64,000 bases of DNA from Rhizobacter terrae. GTDB taxonomy: Bacteria > Pseudomonadota > Gammaproteobacteria > Burkholderiales > Burkholderiaceae_C. Below the pieces are notes generated by a model. The model saw only the letters and a list, made by a program, of their open reading frames with translations. It did not search any database and had not been told where the DNA came from. Below, piece after piece: positions 14,529 through 43,047 of this stretch. Within the stretch, counting starts at the first letter, position 1; each line of letters begins with the position of its first letter. The position numbers and the translations under genes were made by a program. The stretch lies in assembly GCF_003852895.1 (NCBI RefSeq), contig NZ_QUSW01000001.1, forward strand, positions 744,001 through 808,000, given 5' to 3'.

Positions 14529-17312
14529 TCAATGTGCTTCGTCCCAGTTCGGCCCCACGCCGACTTCCGCCACCAGTGGCACCTTCATTGCCGCCACGTC
14601 GGACATGATCTTCGGGATGGCCGCACGCGCCCACTCGACCTCCGCATCCGGCACCTCGAACACCAGTTCGTCGTGCACCTGCATCACCATCTTGGTCGCG
14701 CGGCGCTCCTCATCGAGCACCTTCTGCACGGCGATCATCGACAGCTTGATGAGGTCGGCCGCCGTGCCCTGCATCGGCGCATTGATGGCCTGCCGTTCCG
14801 CGCCCGACTTGCGCGGGCCATTGGGGCTGTTGATCTCCGGCAGCCACAGGCGCCGGCCGAACACCGTCTCCACGAAGCCCTGCGCCTTGGCCGAAGCCTT
14901 GGTCTCGTCCATGTAGCGCTTCACGCCGGGGTATCGGGCGAAGTAGCGCTCGATGTAGGCCGACGCGGCGCTGCGCTCGATGCCCAGGCTGGACGCGAGG
15001 CCGAAGGCGCTCATGCCGTAGATGAGGCCGAAGTTGATGGTCTTGGCATAGCGGCGCTGCTCGCTCGTCACCTCCTCGGGCTTGACGCCGAACACCTCGC
15101 TCGCGGTCGCGCGGTGCACGTCCATGCCTTCGACGAAGGCCTTCACGAGGTTCACGTCTTCGCTGATGTGCGCCATCAGCCGCAGCTCGATCTGCGAGTA
15201 GTCCGCACTCAGCACCACGTGCCCCGGCGGCGCGATGAAGGCCTCGCGAATGCGCCGGCCTTCCGCCGTGCGGATGGGAATGTTCTGCAAGTTGGGGTCG
15301 TTGCTGGACAGCCGCCCCGTCACCGCCACCGCCTGCGCGTAGTTGGTATGCACGCGGCCGGTGGCCGGGTTGACCATCAGCGGCAGCTTGTCGGTGTAGG
15401 TGCCCTTGAGCTTGGACAGGCTGCGATGCTCCAGGATCTTGGCCGGCAGCGGGTAGTCCTCGGCCAGCTTCTCCAGCACTTCTTCGTCGGTGCTGGGCGC
15501 GCCGCTGGCGGTGCGCTTGAGCACGGGCATGGCCAGCTTGGTGTACAGCACCTCGCCAATCTGCTTGGGCGAGCCGATGTTGAAAGGCTGGCCGGCCATG
15601 TCATAGGCCTCGCGTTCGAGCTGCATCATGCGCTCGCCCAGCTGCTGGCTCTGCGCCTGCAAGACGGCAGCGTCGATGAGCACGCCGTTGCGCTCGATGC
15701 GCTTGAGCACCTGCGACACGGGCATCTCGATCTCTTCGTAGATGCGGCGCAGGCCCGCATCGCTTTCGATGCGCGGCCACAGCGTCTGGTGCACGTGCAG
15801 CGTCATGTCGCTGTCTTCGCAGGAGTATTCCGCCGCACGGTTCACCTCGACCTGCGCGAAGGGAATCTGGTTCGCGCCCTTGCCGCACACGTCCTCGTAG
15901 CTCAGGCCGTGGCGCCCCAGGTGGCGGTCGGCCAGGCTTTCCAGGCTGTGCGGCTTGTGCGCCTCGAAGACGTAGCTCTGCAGCATGGTGTCGTGCGCAT
16001 AGCCTTGCACGTCGATGCCGGCGTTGGCGAACACGTGCGTGTCGTACTTGATGTTCTGGCCGAGCTTGAGCTTCGCGGGATTCTCCAGCCAGGGCTTGAA
16101 TCGTGCGAGCACTTCATCCGCAGGCAGTTGGTCCGGTGCGCCGGCGTAGTTGTGGCGCAGCGGAATGTAGGCCGCCTCGCCGGGCGCCACACTCAGCGAG
16201 ATGCCCACGATGCGCGCGACCATGCCATCCAGCGAGTCGGTCTCGGTGTCGATGGCCGTGAGCGGCGCGGTCTCGATCTTCGCCATCCACGCGTCCAGCG
16301 CCTCGCGCGAGACCACCGTCTCGTAGTGCTTGTTGAGCGGTTCAGCAGCAGCCGCAGCAGCAGGCTGTTCCGAGAAAAGGTCGCCACTCGCAATGGCTGC
16401 ATCGCCCGCCAGCTCGGCTTCCAGCTCCTTGCGCATGGTCTTGAAGCCGTAGCGCTGGTAGAACTCCAGCAGCGCCTCGCGCTTCACGTCGCCGAAGGCG
16501 AGCGACTGGAACTCGGGCCAGTCCATCACATGGCCCGCGAGATCGCAGTCGGTCACTACCGTCACCAAGCGACGCCCTTGCGGCAGCCAGTCGAGCGCAC
16601 GCCGCAGGTTGTCGCCCACCACGCCCTTGATGCCCGCCGCATTGGCGATGACGCCATCCAGCGAACCGTGCTCGGCAATCCATTTCACCGCGGTCTTGGG
16701 GCCGACCTTGTCGACCCCGGGCACGTTGTCCACGGTGTCGCCGATGAGCGTGAGGTAGTCGATGATGCGGTCCGGCGGCACGCCGAACTTGGCGATCACG
16801 CCGTCCACGTCCAGCACTTCGGGCGGCTTGCTCATGGTGTTGATGAGCGACACCTTCGGCGTGACGAGCTGGGCCAAGTCCTTGTCGCCGGTGGAGATCA
16901 CGACCTTGTGCCCGCCGCGAGCCGCGGCGCAGGCCAGCGTCCCGATGACATCGTCCGCCTCGACCCCGGGCACCTGCAGCACCGGCCAGCCCAGCAGCTT
17001 GACCACCTCATGGATGGGTTCCACCTGCAAGGCCAGGTCTTCGGGCATGGCGGCCCGGTTGGCCTTGTACTCGGCATACCAATCGTCGCGGAAGGTCTTG
17101 CCCTTGGCATCGAACACACAGGCTGCGTGCTCGCAGGGAATCTTGTCGCGCAGCCACTTGAGCATCGCCACCATGCCGTGGATCGCACCGGTCGGAAACC
17201 CATCGGGGCTGCGCAGGTCCGGCAGCGCGTGGAAGGCACGGTAGAGGTAGCTGGAGCCATCGACCAGCAGCAATGTGCCGGGGTCGGATTCTGTGGTGAT
17301 TTCGGCGGTCAT
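14529..17312 (-). CDS. polA: DNA polymerase I
   Basis: A 927-residue protein, the same length as E. coli Pol I. The 5'-3' exonuclease domain covers about 10-300. The 3'-5' exonuclease has an intact DxE motif (D355, E357 in AIDTETDSLDG), so proofreading should be active. The polymerase domain has motif A DYSQIELR, the O-helix region RRYAKTINFGLIYGMSAFGL and motif C QVHDELVFE. It acts in Okazaki fragment maturation and excision repair. The upstream gap holds the inverted-repeat cluster. Confidence 0.98.
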   Translation of the reverse strand: MTAEITTESDPGTLLLVDGSSYLYRAFHALPDLRSPDGFPTGAIHGMVAMLKWLRDKIPCEHAACVFDAKGKTFRDDWYAEYKANRAAMPEDLALQVEPIHEVVKLLGWPVLQVPGVEADDVIGTLACAAARGGHKVVISTGDKDLAQLVTPKVSLINTMSKPPEVLDVDGVIAKFGVPPDRIIDYLTLIGDTVDNVPGVDKVGPKTAVKWIAEHGSLDGVIANAAGIKGVVGDNLRRALDWLPQGRRLVTVVTDCDLAGHVMDWPEFQSLAFGDVKREALLEFYQRYGFKTMRKELEAELAGDAAIASGDLFSEQPAAAAAAEPLNKHYETVVSREALDAWMAKIETAPLTAIDTETDSLDGMVARIVGISLSVAPGEAAYIPLRHNYAGAPDQLPADEVLARFKPWLENPAKLKLGQNIKYDTHVFANAGIDVQGYAHDTMLQSYVFEAHKPHSLESLADRHLGRHGLSYEDVCGKGANQIPFAQVEVNRAAEYSCEDSDMTLHVHQTLWPRIESDAGLRRIYEEIEMPVSQVLKRIERNGVLIDAAVLQAQSQQLGERMMQLEREAYDMAGQPFNIGSPKQIGEVLYTKLAMPVLKRTASGAPSTDEEVLEKLAEDYPLPAKILEHRSLSKLKGTYTDKLPLMVNPATGRVHTNYAQAVAVTGRLSSNDPNLQNIPIRTAEGRRIREAFIAPPGHVVLSADYSQIELRLMAHISEDVNLVKAFVEGMDVHRATASEVFGVKPEEVTSEQRRYAKTINFGLIYGMSAFGLASSLGIERSAASAYIERYFARYPGVKRYMDETKASAKAQGFVETVFGRRLWLPEINSPNGPRKSGAERQAINAPMQGTAADLIKLSMIAVQKVLDEERRATKMVMQVHDELVFEVPDAEVEWARAAIPKIMSDVAAMKVPLVAEVGVGPNWDEAH

Positions 17313-17356
17313 CGGGCGATTGTCTGCGAAGGCTGATGGCTGTGGTTTCGGGTGGG

Positions 17357-17464
17357 TTGCCGAGGCCGATGGGGTGGCCGACTCCGCTCATGTCCCCCGG
17401 CCTGGGCTGCGCCCAGTCCTCCTCCTTTACTTCGCTACGTCAGCCACCCCATCGGCCTCGGCAA
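17357..17464. repeat. Compact element bounded by 22-base inverted repeats
   Basis: A 108-base segment whose ends are perfect inverted repeats of 22 bases (17357-17378 and 17443-17464; the left arm begins TTGCCGAGGCCGATGG). Inside, read on the minus strand, are the sequence CGTAGCGAAGTAAAGGAGGA, a GC-rich hairpin and CCGGGGGACATGAGCGGA. It has no coding capacity and no clear target-site duplication. It resembles a MITE- or REP-like dispersed intergenic repeat; whether it is multicopy cannot be judged here. Confidence 0.7.
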
Positions 17465-17528
17465 ACACCGCCGTGCCGCACCCTCGCCGCGAAAACCCAG
17501 TGCAGGATCGAGTGGGCTGGGCGCATTG

Positions 17529-17696
17529 CGTAGCGAAGTAAAGGAGGAGGGCCGGACGAAGCCCGGTCCGGGGGAGAGAGCCCGGACACAAACAGTCCAG
17601 TGGACTGTTTGTGCCTGGCGAGCGCCCGACGCCTTGGCGTCGGGCATGAGCGGAGCAGCACACACAGCCCGCTCTCCCGATCCCGCGAAAAACGAA
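17529..17696. repeat. Second, oppositely oriented repeat copy with palindromic insert
   Basis: Starts with a 22-base perfect inverted match (17529-17550) to 17418-17439 of the neighbouring element and continues with the same order: GC-rich hairpin, then CCGGGGGA and, about 80 bases later, CATGAGCGGAG. The extra bases hold two palindromes: 17587-17613 (13-base arms, odd centre, CACAAACAGTCCA) and 17624-17645 (10-base arms GCCCGACGCC). The two copies face each other across about 90 bases. No gene is present between polA and the kinase. Confidence 0.65.
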
Positions 17697-20282
17697 TCAG
17701 GCTCCCTCGGCCTGACGCGAAATCGCCCGTCGCACCTCGCCCATGAAGCGGCCCCTGTCGAAGCCCACCTTGTCCACGATGTCGTGGATGTGGCCATTGA
17801 GCCGCTTGCGGGTGGCCGGCGTCACCTGCCGCGCCGTCACGATCACAATGGGAATGCCCGATGTGCCTGGATGGCCGCTCAGGGCCTCCACCACGTCGAA
17901 GCCGCTCACCTCGGGCATCTCCAGGTCCAGCGCGATCAGGTCGGGGCGGTAGCGGCGGGCCAGCTCGATGCCCTCGGCGCCGCCCGTGGCGCGCAGCACC
18001 GTGTAGCCCGACTGGCGCAAGTGCGTGGCCATGATCTCCACCGCGTTGGCATCGTCGTCCACCACCAGCACCGTCGAATCGCCGCCTGGCTTCAGGCCGA
18101 TGCGCGCCAGGCCGCGTGACAGCACGTGGCGGCCCACCGGCTTTTGCAGCACCAGCGAGGCGCCCAGCGAGAAGCCGCGGCGGTGGTCGGCCATCACCGA
18201 GACCACCACCACGGGAATGTCCGCCCAGGCCGGCACGTCGCGCAGCCGCTCGATGAACTCCCAGCCGTCCATGCCCGGCAAGAGGATGTCGACCGTGATC
18301 ACGTCCGGCGTGATGCTGCCCGTCAGTGCGAGGGCCGCCTCCGCCGAAGTCACGGCGCGCACCTCGAAGCCCTCGGTGCGCAACTGCAGCATCATCAGCG
18401 CGGCGGCCTCGTCGTCGTCTTCGATGATGAGGGCCAGCGGCGTTGGGTTCGCGGTGGCCCGCGCGGCGGCTGGTGCGGGCACGGTGTCCACTGCCACGGG
18501 AGCTTCGGCCTCGCGCCACGGCAGCCACACGGTGAAGCAACTGCCCCGGCCGGTCTCGCTGGTCACCGCCACGGTGCCGCCATGCAGCTCGGCCAGGCGC
18601 TTGACCATCGCCAGGCCGAGCCCGGTGCCCTCGATGCGTTTCGTCAGCTGGTTGGCGATCTGCGTGAACGGCATGAACAGGCGTCGTGCATCCTCGGGCG
18701 TGATGCCGATGCCGGTGTCCACCACCGACAGTTCCACGAAGCGCTGGAACGCGTTGTCCGGCAAGGTCATGCGCACGCCCAGGCCGAAGCCGGGCAAGGC
18801 GCTGTCGGCGGTGGCGCGGTCCACCAGCCGTGCATGCAGGCTCACCTGCCCGTGAGCCGGCGTGAACTTGATGGCGTTGGACAGGAGGTTCAGCACGATC
18901 TGCCGCAGGCGCCGCTTGTCGGCCATGAAGCTGCCCAGCGTGTGCGTGGCCTCCAGGCGCAGCCGCACCTGGGTGGAGGCAGCCTTGTCCGACAGCAGGG
19001 CCACGCTGTCGGCGAGCATGGCGTCCAGGTCGACCGCGGAGAACTCGATCTCCACCTTGTCGGCCTCGATCTTCGACAGGTCCAGCACGTCGTTGATGAG
19101 CGACAACAGGTGCTGGCCGCTCTCGAAGATGTGGCCCACGTAGCCGCCTTGCTGCGGCGTGAGCTCGCCGGCCAGGCCGTCCTTCATCACCTCGGAAAAG
19201 CCGATCACTGCATTCAGCGGCGTGCGCAGCTCGTGCGACATGTTCGACAGGAACTGCGACTTCAGCCGGCTGGCCTCTTCCAGTTGCCGGTTCTGCTCGC
19301 CCAGCGTCAGGTTGACCGCCTCCAGCTGCAGGCTCAGTTCGCGCGCGTCGGCGGCCTTGTGCTGCTCCCGCTCATGGGCCCGGGCCAGGCGGGCATACAG
19401 CGTGCCGTTCTCCGCCGCCAGCATGACGAGCACGAAGCTCGCTGCCAGCAGGCCGTAGATGCGGCCGGCGTAGAAGCCCAGGTCGAAGCGGCCTGCGTTC
19501 AGCACCGCCGACAAGGCGATGTCGAACACCCAGGCGCACATCACCACCAGCAGCCACAGGTCGAGGATGGAGTGCGGCTTGCGCCGCCACAGCACCACGA
19601 TGGCCGCCAGGCTCGCCATCCACACCGACCCCACCACCACACGCATGGCCGGCGAATAGTGGTTGCCCACCATGATGGCCGGCAGCATGGGCGCCCCGGC
19701 GGTGGCCAGCATCACGCACAGCGCCGCGGCCACGAAGGCAAACACCACCACGCCGGCGCCCGGCGGGCGGCCGGCTGCAGCCGGCGGGGCCGAGTCCGCA
19801 CCGCGGGCGGGCAAGGCATAGGCAAGCACGAACACCGGGAAGCCCGTGTGCCAGAACATGTAGATCCACGCCGTGCTCTGGGGTGTGGCGCCCAGCAGGC
19901 CCGTGGGCGCGAACAGCCCCGGGAAGGTGAGCATGTGCATCGCCGCGATGAACGCGGTGAAGAAGTAGCCGCACGACAGCACCTGCAGGCCGGGGCTGCG
20001 TGCGATGCGCGCCTGGCCCAGCAGCAGCAGGGCCGTCATCAGGTCGCCGAAGATGAGCGCGGTCTGGTAGATCGGGATGAACGACCACACCGGCGTGAGC
20101 GGCGTGGTGGCCAGCGGCGCCAGGCCGGTGAAGACCAGCACCGAAGCCACGACCACGCCGAGCGCCACCCGGCGCTCGACGGGGCCGGCCGGGGCGGTGG
20201 ACAACACCGGCGCGGCAGCGGGCAGTGATGACTGCGGCTGCGCCGGAGGTGGGTCGTCGCGCAGCGTGCCCGACATTCCCAT
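17697..20282 (-). CDS. MASE4-type hybrid sensor histidine kinase with two receivers
   Basis: An 861-residue membrane kinase. After a proline-rich N-terminus, a MASE4-like sensor with about seven helices covers 40-290 (IYQTALIFGDL and GLFAPTGLLGATPQSTAW are typical). A coiled coil (300-340) leads to HisKA with phospho-acceptor H350 in SHELRTP. HATPase motifs are DTGIGI and GTGLGLAM. Two receivers follow, with acceptor aspartates D665 and D786. Multi-step phosphorelay is expected, probably ending on the next gene's receiver or a distant partner. No output domain is fused. The signal is unknown. Confidence 0.9.
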   Translation of the reverse strand: MGMSGTLRDDPPPAQPQSSLPAAAPVLSTAPAGPVERRVALGVVVASVLVFTGLAPLATTPLTPVWSFIPIYQTALIFGDLMTALLLLGQARIARSPGLQVLSCGYFFTAFIAAMHMLTFPGLFAPTGLLGATPQSTAWIYMFWHTGFPVFVLAYALPARGADSAPPAAAGRPPGAGVVVFAFVAAALCVMLATAGAPMLPAIMVGNHYSPAMRVVVGSVWMASLAAIVVLWRRKPHSILDLWLLVVMCAWVFDIALSAVLNAGRFDLGFYAGRIYGLLAASFVLVMLAAENGTLYARLARAHEREQHKAADARELSLQLEAVNLTLGEQNRQLEEASRLKSQFLSNMSHELRTPLNAVIGFSEVMKDGLAGELTPQQGGYVGHIFESGQHLLSLINDVLDLSKIEADKVEIEFSAVDLDAMLADSVALLSDKAASTQVRLRLEATHTLGSFMADKRRLRQIVLNLLSNAIKFTPAHGQVSLHARLVDRATADSALPGFGLGVRMTLPDNAFQRFVELSVVDTGIGITPEDARRLFMPFTQIANQLTKRIEGTGLGLAMVKRLAELHGGTVAVTSETGRGSCFTVWLPWREAEAPVAVDTVPAPAAARATANPTPLALIIEDDDEAAALMMLQLRTEGFEVRAVTSAEAALALTGSITPDVITVDILLPGMDGWEFIERLRDVPAWADIPVVVVSVMADHRRGFSLGASLVLQKPVGRHVLSRGLARIGLKPGGDSTVLVVDDDANAVEIMATHLRQSGYTVLRATGGAEGIELARRYRPDLIALDLEMPEVSGFDVVEALSGHPGTSGIPIVIVTARQVTPATRKRLNGHIHDIVDKVGFDRGRFMGEVRRAISRQAEGA

Positions 20283-39344: not shown

Positions 39345-40121
39345 TCAATCCATGAAGTCGTCGTATTCCTTCTGGACGTAAGTGGCGAGACCGTCCCACG
39401 GCAAGGCCCCTGCCGGCGCCACCGGCTCGACCGTGACGACGCGCCTGAAGCCGCCATCCAGGCGCTCGGACTCGATGCGCAGCGCCACCTGCTTCTGCGT
39501 GGACCACAGCACGCGGTGCGACCATTCGCCGTTCTTCTCCACGTGCCACACCGCCGACGCATCCCTGGACGCGCTGGCCAGCACCGGCATGCGCTCGATC
39601 ACCGACGGCGGCACGATGTGCGCCGCTGCATCGAAGCGGCCGTCGAAGCCCACCGCCTCGTACTCCGACTTCGGCACGCTCACCACCATGCGATGCGCCC
39701 GGTCGACGAAGCGCAGCACCGTTTGCCCCTTCGCATCGAGCTGCACCCAGCGCGCGGCGGCCTCGGCATCGAAATGCTTGTGGCCGGCGTGCTCCTGCCT
39801 GCTCTCGTGCCGGTGTGCATCCCTGGCCTGCGGCGGCAGGATGCGTTCGGTCCACACCGTGTCGCCGCGGCGCACCACCTTCTCCTGCCAGACCTCGGTG
39901 CGCATCACGCCGGCGGCGGTGACGACCCTGGTTTCGGTGGTCACCACCGCATCGAGCGCCGGAGAAACCGCCAAAGCGGCCGGGGCCGCCTGCATCACGC
40001 CCGCGGCCGCCAGGCACAGCGCCGTGGCCAGGACGGCAGCCCGGCCCCAGGCACGGTGCAGCACCTGCCCCAGCGTGGGCGCAGGGCCCACGCGGTGAGG
40101 CTTCAAGCCACGTACTTTCAT
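39345..40121 (-). CDS. Exported histidine-rich protein of unknown function
   Basis: A 258-residue protein with a long N-terminal signal region (hydrophobic core about 30-50, ending APAALA). A histidine-rich stretch RDAHRHESRQEHAGHKHF lies at about residues 100-118, and the C-terminus is acidic (YVQKEYDDFMD). I recognise no domain. Its ATG overlaps the upstream phosphatase stop by one base (TGATG), so translation is coupled. The histidine cluster would suit metal handling for the zinc/magnesium phosphatases; that is inference. Confidence 0.65.
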   Translation of the reverse strand: MKVRGLKPHRVGPAPTLGQVLHRAWGRAAVLATALCLAAAGVMQAAPAALAVSPALDAVVTTETRVVTAAGVMRTEVWQEKVVRRGDTVWTERILPPQARDAHRHESRQEHAGHKHFDAEAAARWVQLDAKGQTVLRFVDRAHRMVVSVPKSEYEAVGFDGRFDAAAHIVPPSVIERMPVLASASRDASAVWHVEKNGEWSHRVLWSTQKQVALRIESERLDGGFRRVVTVEPVAPAGALPWDGLATYVQKEYDDFMD

Positions 40122-41548
40122 CAGTACCCCGCTGCGTTCTTCACCAGGGTGAAGACCTTGGTGTTGTCGATGGTGCCCTTGAAGGTCTTGGACGCCGCGC
40201 CGGTGGCGAACAGCATCACGTCGCCGCCACCGTGGGTCTCCGAGCCGGGCGTGCCGCGGCGCACCGCGACTTCCTGCAGGTAGTCCTTGTTGGTGACGGT
40301 GGCCGCATCCAGCGGCGCCCGCGTGGCGACGCGGTTGGAGCCGTTGCCGAACACCAGCGTGGTGTAGCTGTTGCCGTTCACGTCGGTGTTGGGCGCGCCG
40401 TTGGCGTAGTTGATGCTCAGGCCCAGCGGATCGCTGCCGCGCTTGCCGTAGCCGTTGAAGGCCATCGTGTGGTCATGGTCGGCGGTGACCACGATCAGCG
40501 TGTTGGCCAGGCCCGGGTCGATGGTGTTCATCTTGTCCAGCGCCGCCTTGATGGCATCGTCGAACGCGATGGTGTCGGCCAGCGCGCGGGCGGCATTGGT
40601 GCCGTGCAGCGCGTGGTCGATGCGGCCGCCTTCGACCATCAGGAAGAAGCCGTTGGCGTTCTTGGACAGGATGTCGATGCTCTTGCTCGCCATCTGCGCG
40701 AGGCTCGGCTCCTTCGTCGGGTCGCGGTCCAGCTCGTAGGACATGTGGCCTTGCGCGATGGCGAAGTCGTACAGGCCGATGACCTTGGTGCCCCCCGTGG
40801 TGGGCAGCGAGTTGAAGCCCGACAGGTCGCTCACGAAGTTGTAGCCCTTGGCCTGCAGCTCGGCCACGAGGTCGCGGCCGTCCGGGCGGCCCTTGGGACG
40901 CGTGGTCGCATCGAAGGGGCGCCAGTAGTTGCTCACGCCACCCATCATCACGTCCACGCCGTTGCCCAGCGCCGCGTTGGCGCCGGCGCCGCCGGGCACC
41001 GCCTGGCGGGCGATGTTGTATTCGGCGTCGCGGTGGCAGCTGTGCGCATAGGTCGCGCCCGGCGTGGCGTGCGTGAGGCGCGCAGTCGAGATCACGCCCG
41101 TGGCCTTGCCCTTGGCGATGGCCAGCTCCAGCAGCGTGGTCGACGGGCCGCCGTTGCCGGTGGCCGGGCAGTTGTCCACCGCGGCGCTCACGCCGGTGGT
41201 GGCGTCCTTGCCCGGTGCCTTGGCGAAGGTGTTGCCGTCCATCGAAAGGACGTCGTTGCGCGTCTTCACGCCGGTCATGTAGGCCGCCATCGAGGGCGCG
41301 CTGTCGGTGGTCTGCGCGTCCAGCGAATAGGTCTTGACGCGGGCGGTGTACGGCAGCGTCTCCATGGCCAGCTGGCCTTCTTCCTTGTACTTCCAGATGC
41401 GCGACGCGGTGATGGTCACCGGGCCCATGCCGTCGCCGAGGAAGAAGATGACGTTCTTGGCTTCGCCCGCGGCGAAGGCCTGCGGTGCCAGGGTCGCGGC
41501 AAGGGTCGTGGTCAATGCCGCTGCGATGAGGGAATGCTTGATGTTCAT
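40121..41548 (-). CDS. Alkaline phosphatase, secreted
   Basis: A 475-residue PhoA-superfamily enzyme with a signal peptide (MNIKHSLIAAALTTTLAATL, cleaved near AFAAGEA). Visible metal and active-site segments are FFLGDGMG, nucleophile serine in TTDSAPSMAAYMTG, VEGGRIDHALH, VTADHDH and ETHGGGDV. It hydrolyses phosphomonoesters in the periplasm for phosphate scavenging. It is the second of two tandem paralogues, 47 bases after the first. An upstream in-frame ATG at 41599 is rejected because the signal peptide starts at MNIKH. Confidence 0.93.
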   Translation of the reverse strand: MNIKHSLIAAALTTTLAATLAPQAFAAGEAKNVIFFLGDGMGPVTITASRIWKYKEEGQLAMETLPYTARVKTYSLDAQTTDSAPSMAAYMTGVKTRNDVLSMDGNTFAKAPGKDATTGVSAAVDNCPATGNGGPSTTLLELAIAKGKATGVISTARLTHATPGATYAHSCHRDAEYNIARQAVPGGAGANAALGNGVDVMMGGVSNYWRPFDATTRPKGRPDGRDLVAELQAKGYNFVSDLSGFNSLPTTGGTKVIGLYDFAIAQGHMSYELDRDPTKEPSLAQMASKSIDILSKNANGFFLMVEGGRIDHALHGTNAARALADTIAFDDAIKAALDKMNTIDPGLANTLIVVTADHDHTMAFNGYGKRGSDPLGLSINYANGAPNTDVNGNSYTTLVFGNGSNRVATRAPLDAATVTNKDYLQEVAVRRGTPGSETHGGGDVMLFATGAASKTFKGTIDNTKVFTLVKNAAGY

Positions 41549-41595
41549 CGTGATCTCAAATGTCGGGAGGGTGGATGGCGGTTTTGTGACAGGGC

Positions 41596-43047
41596 TCACA
41601 ACCCCACTGCCGCCTTCACCAGCGAAAACACCTTGGTGTTGTCCATGACGCCGTGGAAGGTGTCCGCGCCCAGGCCCATGGCCCCGAGGAACACGTCCGC
41701 GCCGCCGTGCGTTTCGCCGCCCGTGGGCATCTGCACCACCGCTTCCTGGTGGTAGTTCTTGTCGTACACCGCGGCATCGGTCAGCACCGTCATCGCGCTG
41801 CGGGCGGTGTTGACGCGGTTCTCGCCGTTACCGAACACCAGCGTGGTGAAGGGCATGCCGTCGGCATCGACCGCCGGCTTGCTGGGGTCGGTGAAGTCGC
41901 GCATCAGGCCGAGGATGCCGGGGTTGGCATCGGTGGTCTTGCCGGTGCGGGCGGCGTAGCCGTTCATCACCATCGTGTGGTCATGGTCGGCCGTGACCAC
42001 GATGAGCGTGTTCTTCAGCTCGGGGTCGACCGCCTTGACCTTGGCGATGGCCGCGGCGATCGCCTCGTCGAACGCCTTCGCGTCCTGCAGCGCCTTGCGG
42101 GCGAGCGTCGGGTGCAGCGCCTGGTCGATGCGGCCGCCTTCCACCATCAGGAAATAGCCCTTCTTGTTGTTGGCCAGCAGGTCGATGGCCTTGGTCGTCA
42201 TCTCCGCGAGGCTGGGCTCCTTGGCCGGATCGCGGTCGATGTCGAAGTTCATGTGGCTCTTGTTGAACAGGCCCAGCAGCTTGGTGGTCGAGGCCGGCAC
42301 GGCCGACAGGGCGGCAGGGTCGGTGACATAGCTGTAGCCCTTGGCCCTCATCTCGGCCACGAGGTCGCGCGCGTCAGTGCGCACCGAGCCCTTCGCATCA
42401 CCCTGGGCCAGGAAGTGCTGCCAGCCGCCGCCCAGCACCACATCCACGCCGTCGGTGCCCAGCGCGGTGTTGTAGCCCGCGCCGCCGGGCACGAGCTGCG
42501 CGGCGATGGTGTTCTCGCCATCGCGGTGGCAGAGGTGCGCGTAGGTGGCCGCAGGCGTCGCGTGCGTCACACGGGTGGTGGTCACCACGCCGGTGCCGCG
42601 GCCGGCGGCCTTGGCCAGCTCCAGCAGCGTGGTCACCGCCGTGCCGTTGCCCGTGGCCGGGCAGGTGCTGTCCACACCGCTGATGTACGACGCGCCCGCC
42701 GGGCTGCGGGCCTGGGTATCGGCGGACATGGAGATGACTTCGTTGTTCATCTTCACGCCAGTCATGTAGGCCGACATCGACGGCGCGCTGTCGGTGACCT
42801 GGGCGTCGTTCGAATAGGTCTTGATGAACGCGGTCTCGGGGAAGGTGTCGATCGTCAGCTCGCCGTCTTCGCCGGCGGTGTAGATGCGGGCAGCGGTCAT
42901 CGGCACCATGCCGTAGCCGTCGCCGAGGAAGAAGATGACGTTCTTCGGGGTGGGGGCCGCCGGGGCGGGATCGTTGTTGCTGGTGGTGATGCACCCAGCC
43001 ATGGCCAAAGCGGACAGCAGGGCTGCCGCAAGGGTCGCGCGTCGCAT
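41596..43047 (-). CDS. Alkaline phosphatase, lipoprotein form
   Basis: A 483-residue paralogue of the downstream phosphatase with the same motifs: FFLGDGYG, TDSAPSMSAYMTG, VEGGRIDQALH, VTADHDH and ETHGGADV. Unlike that protein it has a lipobox (LAMAGC, C19), so it should be membrane-anchored. GGAG precedes the ATG. A Pho box lies 68-96 bases upstream, so phosphate starvation control is expected for both phosphatase genes and probably the histidine-rich gene. Duplication with one soluble and one tethered copy is the notable point. Confidence 0.92.
   Translation of the reverse strand: MRRATLAAALLSALAMAGCITTSNNDPAPAAPTPKNVIFFLGDGYGMVPMTAARIYTAGEDGELTIDTFPETAFIKTYSNDAQVTDSAPSMSAYMTGVKMNNEVISMSADTQARSPAGASYISGVDSTCPATGNGTAVTTLLELAKAAGRGTGVVTTTRVTHATPAATYAHLCHRDGENTIAAQLVPGGAGYNTALGTDGVDVVLGGGWQHFLAQGDAKGSVRTDARDLVAEMRAKGYSYVTDPAALSAVPASTTKLLGLFNKSHMNFDIDRDPAKEPSLAEMTTKAIDLLANNKKGYFLMVEGGRIDQALHPTLARKALQDAKAFDEAIAAAIAKVKAVDPELKNTLIVVTADHDHTMVMNGYAARTGKTTDANPGILGLMRDFTDPSKPAVDADGMPFTTLVFGNGENRVNTARSAMTVLTDAAVYDKNYHQEAVVQMPTGGETHGGADVFLGAMGLGADTFHGVMDNTKVFSLVKAAVGL

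Follow-up and report, generated by a model that had tools for sequence, protein, structure and literature searches.

A Divergent Pair of Hairpin Repeats beside polA in Rhizobacter terrae Belongs to a Dispersed Family in Which the Fold of One Strand Is Kept While Stem Sequence Changes

Two face-to-face inverted repeats lie beside polA in the genome of Rhizobacter terrae, and the question they raise is whether they are mobile DNA, a structured RNA, or an accessory of the neighboring genes. The window that we analyzed is the whole 64,000-nucleotide stretch of contig NZ_QUSW01000001.1 (positions 744,001 to 808,000, forward strand). Within it, the repeats occupy the spacer between polA (14529-17312, minus strand) and an 861-codon ORF (17697-20282, minus strand) that reads by eye as a hybrid histidine kinase. 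The arm TTGCCGAGGCCGATGGGGTGGC at 17357-17378 returns as its exact reverse complement at 17443-17464, which gives a 108-base element at 17357-17464 (copy A); the first-pass annotation had described such an element with perfect 22-base terminal inverted repeats, and its coordinates and arms are exact. The perfect arms extend to 26 bases if one mismatch is allowed (inverted-repeat pair I2). Copy B (17501-17682) is inverted and longer relative to copy A. The core lies at 17439-17420 (minus strand) in copy A and at 17529-17548 (plus strand) in copy B, the order of internal blocks is identical in the two, as annotated, and the shared block CGTAGCGAAGTAAAGGAGGA has two matches in the window versus 0.00 expected from 100 shuffles. 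The features are collected in Table 1.

Table 1. Features of the divergent repeat pair in the polA/kinase spacer (positions in the window)
Feature	Position	Strand	Basis or remark
Copy A outer-stem 3' arm (P1)	17357-17382	-	reverse complement on plus strand; 96% complementary to 17439-17464
Copy A conserved 3' internal-loop strand GGGGGACATGAGCGGA	17383-17398	-	(nearly) invariant in 150 aligned copies
Copy A variable inner hairpin (P3)	17399-17419	-	sequence, fold, P3 covariation
Copy A conserved 5' internal-loop strand GTAGCGAAGTAAAGGAGGA	17420-17438	-	core 12 times in genome; none expected by chance in window
Copy A outer-stem 5' arm (P1)	17439-17464	-	pairs with 17357-17382
Spacer separating the divergent copies, 36 nt	17465-17500	.	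modal gap in relatives 37-48 nt
Copy B outer-stem 5' arm	17501-17529	+	pairing partly degraded
Copy B conserved 5' internal-loop strand GTAGCGAAGTAAAGGAGGA	17530-17548	+	identical to copy A
Copy B inner hairpin (P3)	17549-17569	+	sequence; alignment with other copies
Copy B GGGGGA, 3' internal-loop strand part one	17570-17575	+	sequence
Copy B long-form module, two added hairpins (CCCGGACACAAACAGTCC..GGACTGTTTGTGCCTGG; GCCCGACGCC..GGCGTCGGGC)	17576-17644	+	same module and position in L040, L054, and L063
Copy B CATGAGCGGA, 3' internal-loop strand part two	17645-17654	+	sequence
Copy B outer-stem 3' arm	17655-17682	+	imperfect pairing with 17501-17529
Stretch missing from the orthologous polA/kinase spacer of G002	17335-17697 (approximate limits)	.	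about 29 nt versus about 400

The second copy had been annotated as inverted and partial, with two extra palindromes. It is inverted, and the palindromes are present (17582-17618 and approximately 17624-17644); it is more than a partial copy, being a long form in which a module sits between GGGGGA and CATGAGCGGA, even though the outer stem is degraded. Arm extension yielded 20 weakly scoring pairs in copy B and 26-31 in the genome's other copies. Four genomes from different genera have the two-hairpin module (ACAAACAGTCC / GGACTGTTTGT and a further hairpin) at the same position of the 3' loop strand, which makes this a recurrent long form of the element. Elsewhere in the window, a terminator-like hairpin with a T-tract marks the end of the kinase gene (17716-17696, minus strand), outside the repeat unit, and 40121-42945 holds a tandem pair of paralogous stretches, 70-83% identical and spaced about 1.49 kb.

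A single genomic copy had been named as the finding that would argue against a mobile repeat. The host genome (6.47 Mb) contains 12 core copies: the window pair, one more pair, and eight singles. A full-sensitivity search beside the single copies found no convincing degenerate partner halves. From ten copies we built a covariance model (R1), which recovered eleven at high score; the added module and the degraded stem of window copy B gave it a low score. R1 matched 114 of 251 genomes of the same bacterial family, in 76 of 141 genera; per-genome counts in these large searches are lower bounds, as the best 11-15 candidates were scored per genome. Carriers among the matches listed include Variovorax, Rhodoferax, Hydrogenophaga, Rubrivivax, Ramlibacter, Pseudorhodoferax, Xylophilus, and Acidovorax. 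Outside the family the repeat is sparse, with matches in two more families of an order-wide sample and in 2 of 40 genera of a third (f8). A search of genome contigs with an exact long pattern, which was over-strict, returned no matches. Viral contigs gave one match, close to a contig end, and carriage of the repeat by phages looks marginal. The sole Rfam match at the gathering threshold was a tRNA, and a permissive Rfam search returned only microRNA matches far below threshold. The copies are apparently members of a large and so far undescribed repeat family in bacterial intergenic DNA.

Each copy follows one plan: a long variable stem, GNAGCGAARUNAAGGRGGA, a variable hairpin, GGRGGACAUGAGCGGA, and the return of the stem. 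On the purine strand, the outer stem P1 leads through a three-by-three loop (G-N-A / G-G-A) to the short helix P2, then to a purine loop and the hairpin P3. In P2, GCGAA pairs with UUCGC or, as tandem G.A, with UGAGC, and the sides of the purine loop read R-U-N-A-A-GG-R-GG-A and GG-R-GG-A-C-A. Most loop positions are nearly invariant in 150 aligned copies. Between copies, the loops are 86% identical and the P1 arms 47%; the arms pair at 95% of positions within their own copy and at 59% when arms of different copies are cross-paired. Double changes were found at 37 of 39 pairs of the 150-copy alignment, with a covariation score of 0.713, against 0.180 after shuffling and no more than 0.129 for slid partners. 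Fitting that alignment to the structure inflates these counts somewhat, but the ungapped alignment A2, made without such fitting, agrees (0.738 versus 0.204). Covariation extends into the loops: columns 38/106 vary among A-U, G-C, and C-G (34 double changes), columns 46/100 exchange A.G for G.A (115 and 25 of 150 copies), and the tandem G.A form of P2 (UGAGC) occurs only alongside G at column 39 (69 of 69). The folds are 8-11 standard deviations below those of shuffled sequences, and copy A folds as RNA at -74.9 kcal/mol (z -8.45). Stem length in the main family is sharp, near 25 bp. In genus g239, the copies are single, with near-perfect, locus-specific stems of 25-58 bp whose arms have a faint common sequence.

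The mispairs within the stems indicate which strand carries the fold. G.U and A.C would be equally common if the double-stranded arms were what mattered. P1 contains 325 G.U and 39 A.C (253 and 12 in the inner 16 bp), and G.U was in excess in 127 copies and A.C in 2, which indicates that the fold of one strand is maintained. The ratio is alike in the left and right halves of pairs (119:17 and 117:10), so that a simple replication-strand effect is cancelled. It is also similar in copies that are sense (84:12) and antisense (111:13) relative to both flanking genes; these gene contexts come from a simple codon-usage caller, and although single contexts may err, the aggregate is informative. The purine-strand fold is therefore selected, or needed for copying, outside the mRNA of the neighbors, and a function within the flanking mRNA is contradicted by the antisense copies. 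We conclude that the folded shape of one strand is kept while the sequence of the stem mostly changes freely. The RNA structure proposed in the first-pass annotation thus holds as a one-strand fold with strong covariation, though without dependence on transcription of the flanking genes.

Copies occur typically as divergent pairs. Among neighboring matches less than 1 kb apart, 66 of 68 were divergent (-,+), with gaps mostly of 37-48 nt; the 12 copies of G227 all fall into six pairs of this kind, and most of the 22 copies of G197 are paired. The arms of pair partners are 44% identical, and their P2 type is nearly always the same. The window pair, with its gap of 36 nt, is a typical unit. In L188 (6754-7397), a TumE-family toxin gene and an HVO_A0114/MarR-like regulator lie between divergent halves separated by 787 nt, and a small membrane-protein-like open frame lies between halves 643 nt apart in L193 (4668-5310). 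Carriage of cargo is only a lead, from the single case of L188.

Empty sites, which had been suggested as a check, were found at two loci. The congener G002 contains no copies, and its polA/kinase spacer lacks the unit (Table 1); at a second locus, the spacer is 16 nt in G888 and 6 nt in G016 versus about 330 nt in L183. These empty-site relatives are 12-20% diverged, and no base-exact junction or target-site duplication was definable from them. In the spacer that holds the element in L183 and L135, G895 has a different palindrome-rich insertion (L356, about 205-380) with AGACACAAACGGC..CGTTTGTGCCTGACGAAGG, which resembles the long-form module. Several loci are common to different genera with the pair in place and its stems still complementary, which indicates that many copies are old. 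In ortholog stem pairs, we counted 84 two-sided changes, 39 one-sided changes that still pair, 28 losses or gains of pairing, and 244 unchanged pairs; part of these changes did not happen in place, since the units at some of the ortholog loci compared are clearly different. L112 and L120 are orthologous spacers from two genera whose pairs have their two stem types in reversed order, as would follow from inversion of the unit or from independent insertions.

The reading that we favor, with about even confidence, is that the pair at 17357-17682 forms a single unit within a family of non-autonomous mobile repeats whose ends are recognized as folded single strands. A protein acting in trans would recognize the folded single strand of each half when replication or transfer exposes it. 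Recognition would depend on the conserved loop sequence together with the shape of the stem. The protein would copy or move the unit, mostly into spacers just past stop codons. After insertion, the stem would drift, and compensatory change or copying templated by the hairpin would bring back its complementarity; copying, and not selection alone, would keep the arms complementary. Quasipalindrome correction without selection could partly explain long stems that are perfect and yet changing. We infer, rather than observe, that the recognized strand is DNA and not an RNA made by the element, because single-stranded DNA and element-made RNA leave the same strand bias.

A structured RNA is a possible alternative, if a somewhat doubtful one. 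Each half would act as a small non-coding RNA or belong to a transcript made inside the unit, and its purine-rich internal loop would bind a protein, a ribosome, or a ligand; the copies would have spread by duplication. The covariation is of the RNA style, both in the double changes at 38/106 and in the UUCGC/UGAGC switch coupled to position 39 and the A.G to G.A swap; the depth of the folds relative to shuffles is consistent with it as well, and a Bordetella repeat, likened to ours by description only, lies in a detected sRNA region (PMC3110155). Set against this are the similar strand bias of copies antisense to the flanking genes, the lack of a promoter-like site in the window region, spacers that are by eye not visibly conserved across genomes, and the absence of an Rfam match.

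We consider it very unlikely that the host keeps the unit as a bidirectional terminator or a stabilizer of mRNA 3' ends. Its position would suit such a role: units lie near stop codons, often 10-60 nt after them, and convergent spacers are favored over divergent ones (the spacers that hold pairs are 40 tandem, 12 convergent, and 5 divergent, versus a background of 160, 31, and 46). However, the window unit has no U-tract, the kinase gene ends in a terminator-like site of its own, outside the unit, the strand bias is independent of gene orientation, and relatives have empty sites.

The matching transposase that had been proposed as a check was not found linked to the element, and this bears on a REPIN/BIME-type doublet moved by a RAYT (Y1 transposase), which we regard as highly improbable. 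The divergent palindrome doublets, dispersed in intergenic DNA, and the GNAG that opens the conserved loop strand recall such a system. However, the host genome has no Y1_Tnp (RAYT), nor do 11 others of the copy-rich genomes (12 of 50). Y1_Tnp was present in 38 of the 50 genomes rich in copies and in 14 of the 17 that have none, and an association of Y1/RAYT with the repeat was accordingly rejected. One copy-free relative, G020, has 20 Y1_Tnp matches, where most of its relatives have one or two. A scan for a recurrent transposase among the neighboring genes found ordinary metabolic and regulatory genes that do not recur. Neither the neighbor genes nor the Y1 survey thus revealed a mobilizing protein linked to or associated with the element.

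To a classic MITE, with terminal inverted repeats read by the DDE transposase of a parent IS, we give almost no weight. The 108-base size, the perfect inverted arms, the intergenic position, and presence or absence at orthologous sites fit one; yet the copies do not have arm sequence in common, as the cross-pairing of their arms shows, the conserved part is internal to the element, and no parent IS was seen. Of the annotation's MITE/REP-like label, the REP-like half survives, as a non-autonomous, family-specific repeat (12 copies, presence/absence, intergenic, with a wide and patchy spread), and a strict MITE does not. Insertion into pre-existing terminator palindromes, or inverted target duplication, was set aside as less probable: the long, near-perfect, locus-specific stems of g239 suggest it, but the main-family stem length is sharp and the g239 arms share faint sequence.

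Several known systems resemble the family in part. REP/BIME and REPIN/RAYT elements are likewise short dispersed intergenic palindromes, often in inverted doublets, and recognition of REP/REPIN as a folded single strand is established. In its working, REPIN/RAYT would be the nearest system, and some of the features of membership that we tested failed: a REP has about 20-25 nt and a stem conserved in sequence, whereas the halves here have 100-180 nt, stems of 25-30 bp whose sequence is free, and conservation in the internal loop, and the repeat is not associated with a Y1 transposase. ERIC, BOX, and NEMIS elements have about 100-150 bp, an imperfect long hairpin, positions near gene ends, and modular variants, and their sequence is conserved along the whole element. 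Our repeat is similar in size, hairpin, and position, and its long form recalls BOX modularity; unlike theirs, its stem is conserved as complementarity only. Integron attC sites, with a variable stem and a variable terminal hairpin, are recognized by the structure of the folded strand. The variable stem and hairpin here, and the fold recognition that we propose, are similar, whereas the copies are divergent pairs across the genome and not cassette arrays.

The beta-proteobacterial repeat element BRE (Hot et al., 2011; PMC3110155) may prove to be an earlier sighting of this family, in which its structure went unnoticed; the two were compared by description only. BRE is described as a GC-rich repeat, about 90 bp long and scattered through intergenic DNA. 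It is listed for Comamonadaceae (Polaromonas, Delftia, Acidovorax, Rhodoferax) and for Bordetella, where it measures 75-91 bp; it occurs in tandem, with up to 8 copies per locus, and is linked to a detected sRNA region (PMC3110155). An interval is given for B. pertussis (NC_002929, 3605317-3605401; PMC3110155). Host range, size, and intergenic dispersal overlap with those of our repeat, whereas the available text describes BRE as tandem and gives no paired structure or strand analysis. The gene lexA, taken as a clue to BRE neighborhoods, had no match among ten g239 neighbors. The features of a structured interspersed repeat, many dispersed intergenic copies with a conserved fold, were found, and we file the family as a distinct variant of that kind, unless BRE proves to be the same.

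Rather tentatively, the family could represent a new class of mobile element, in which the fold of one strand is read, a purine loop with a nearly invariant GG-R-GG on both sides and the A.G/G.A swap is borne on stems of any sequence, a candidate non-Y1 protein processes divergent hairpin ends, and cargo, such as the TumE toxin-antitoxin pair of L188, is perhaps carried. Among dispersed repeats it is an unusually clean case in which shape persists rather than stem sequence, and the comparison of G.U with A.C in sense and antisense copies separates structure intrinsic to an element from function in host mRNA. The family is common in a widespread family of environmental bacteria (114 of 251 genomes), yet it has no Rfam model and no known structural description in the literature searched. 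A protein that reads the fold, if found, would define a new route of mobilization or a new RNA-protein system.
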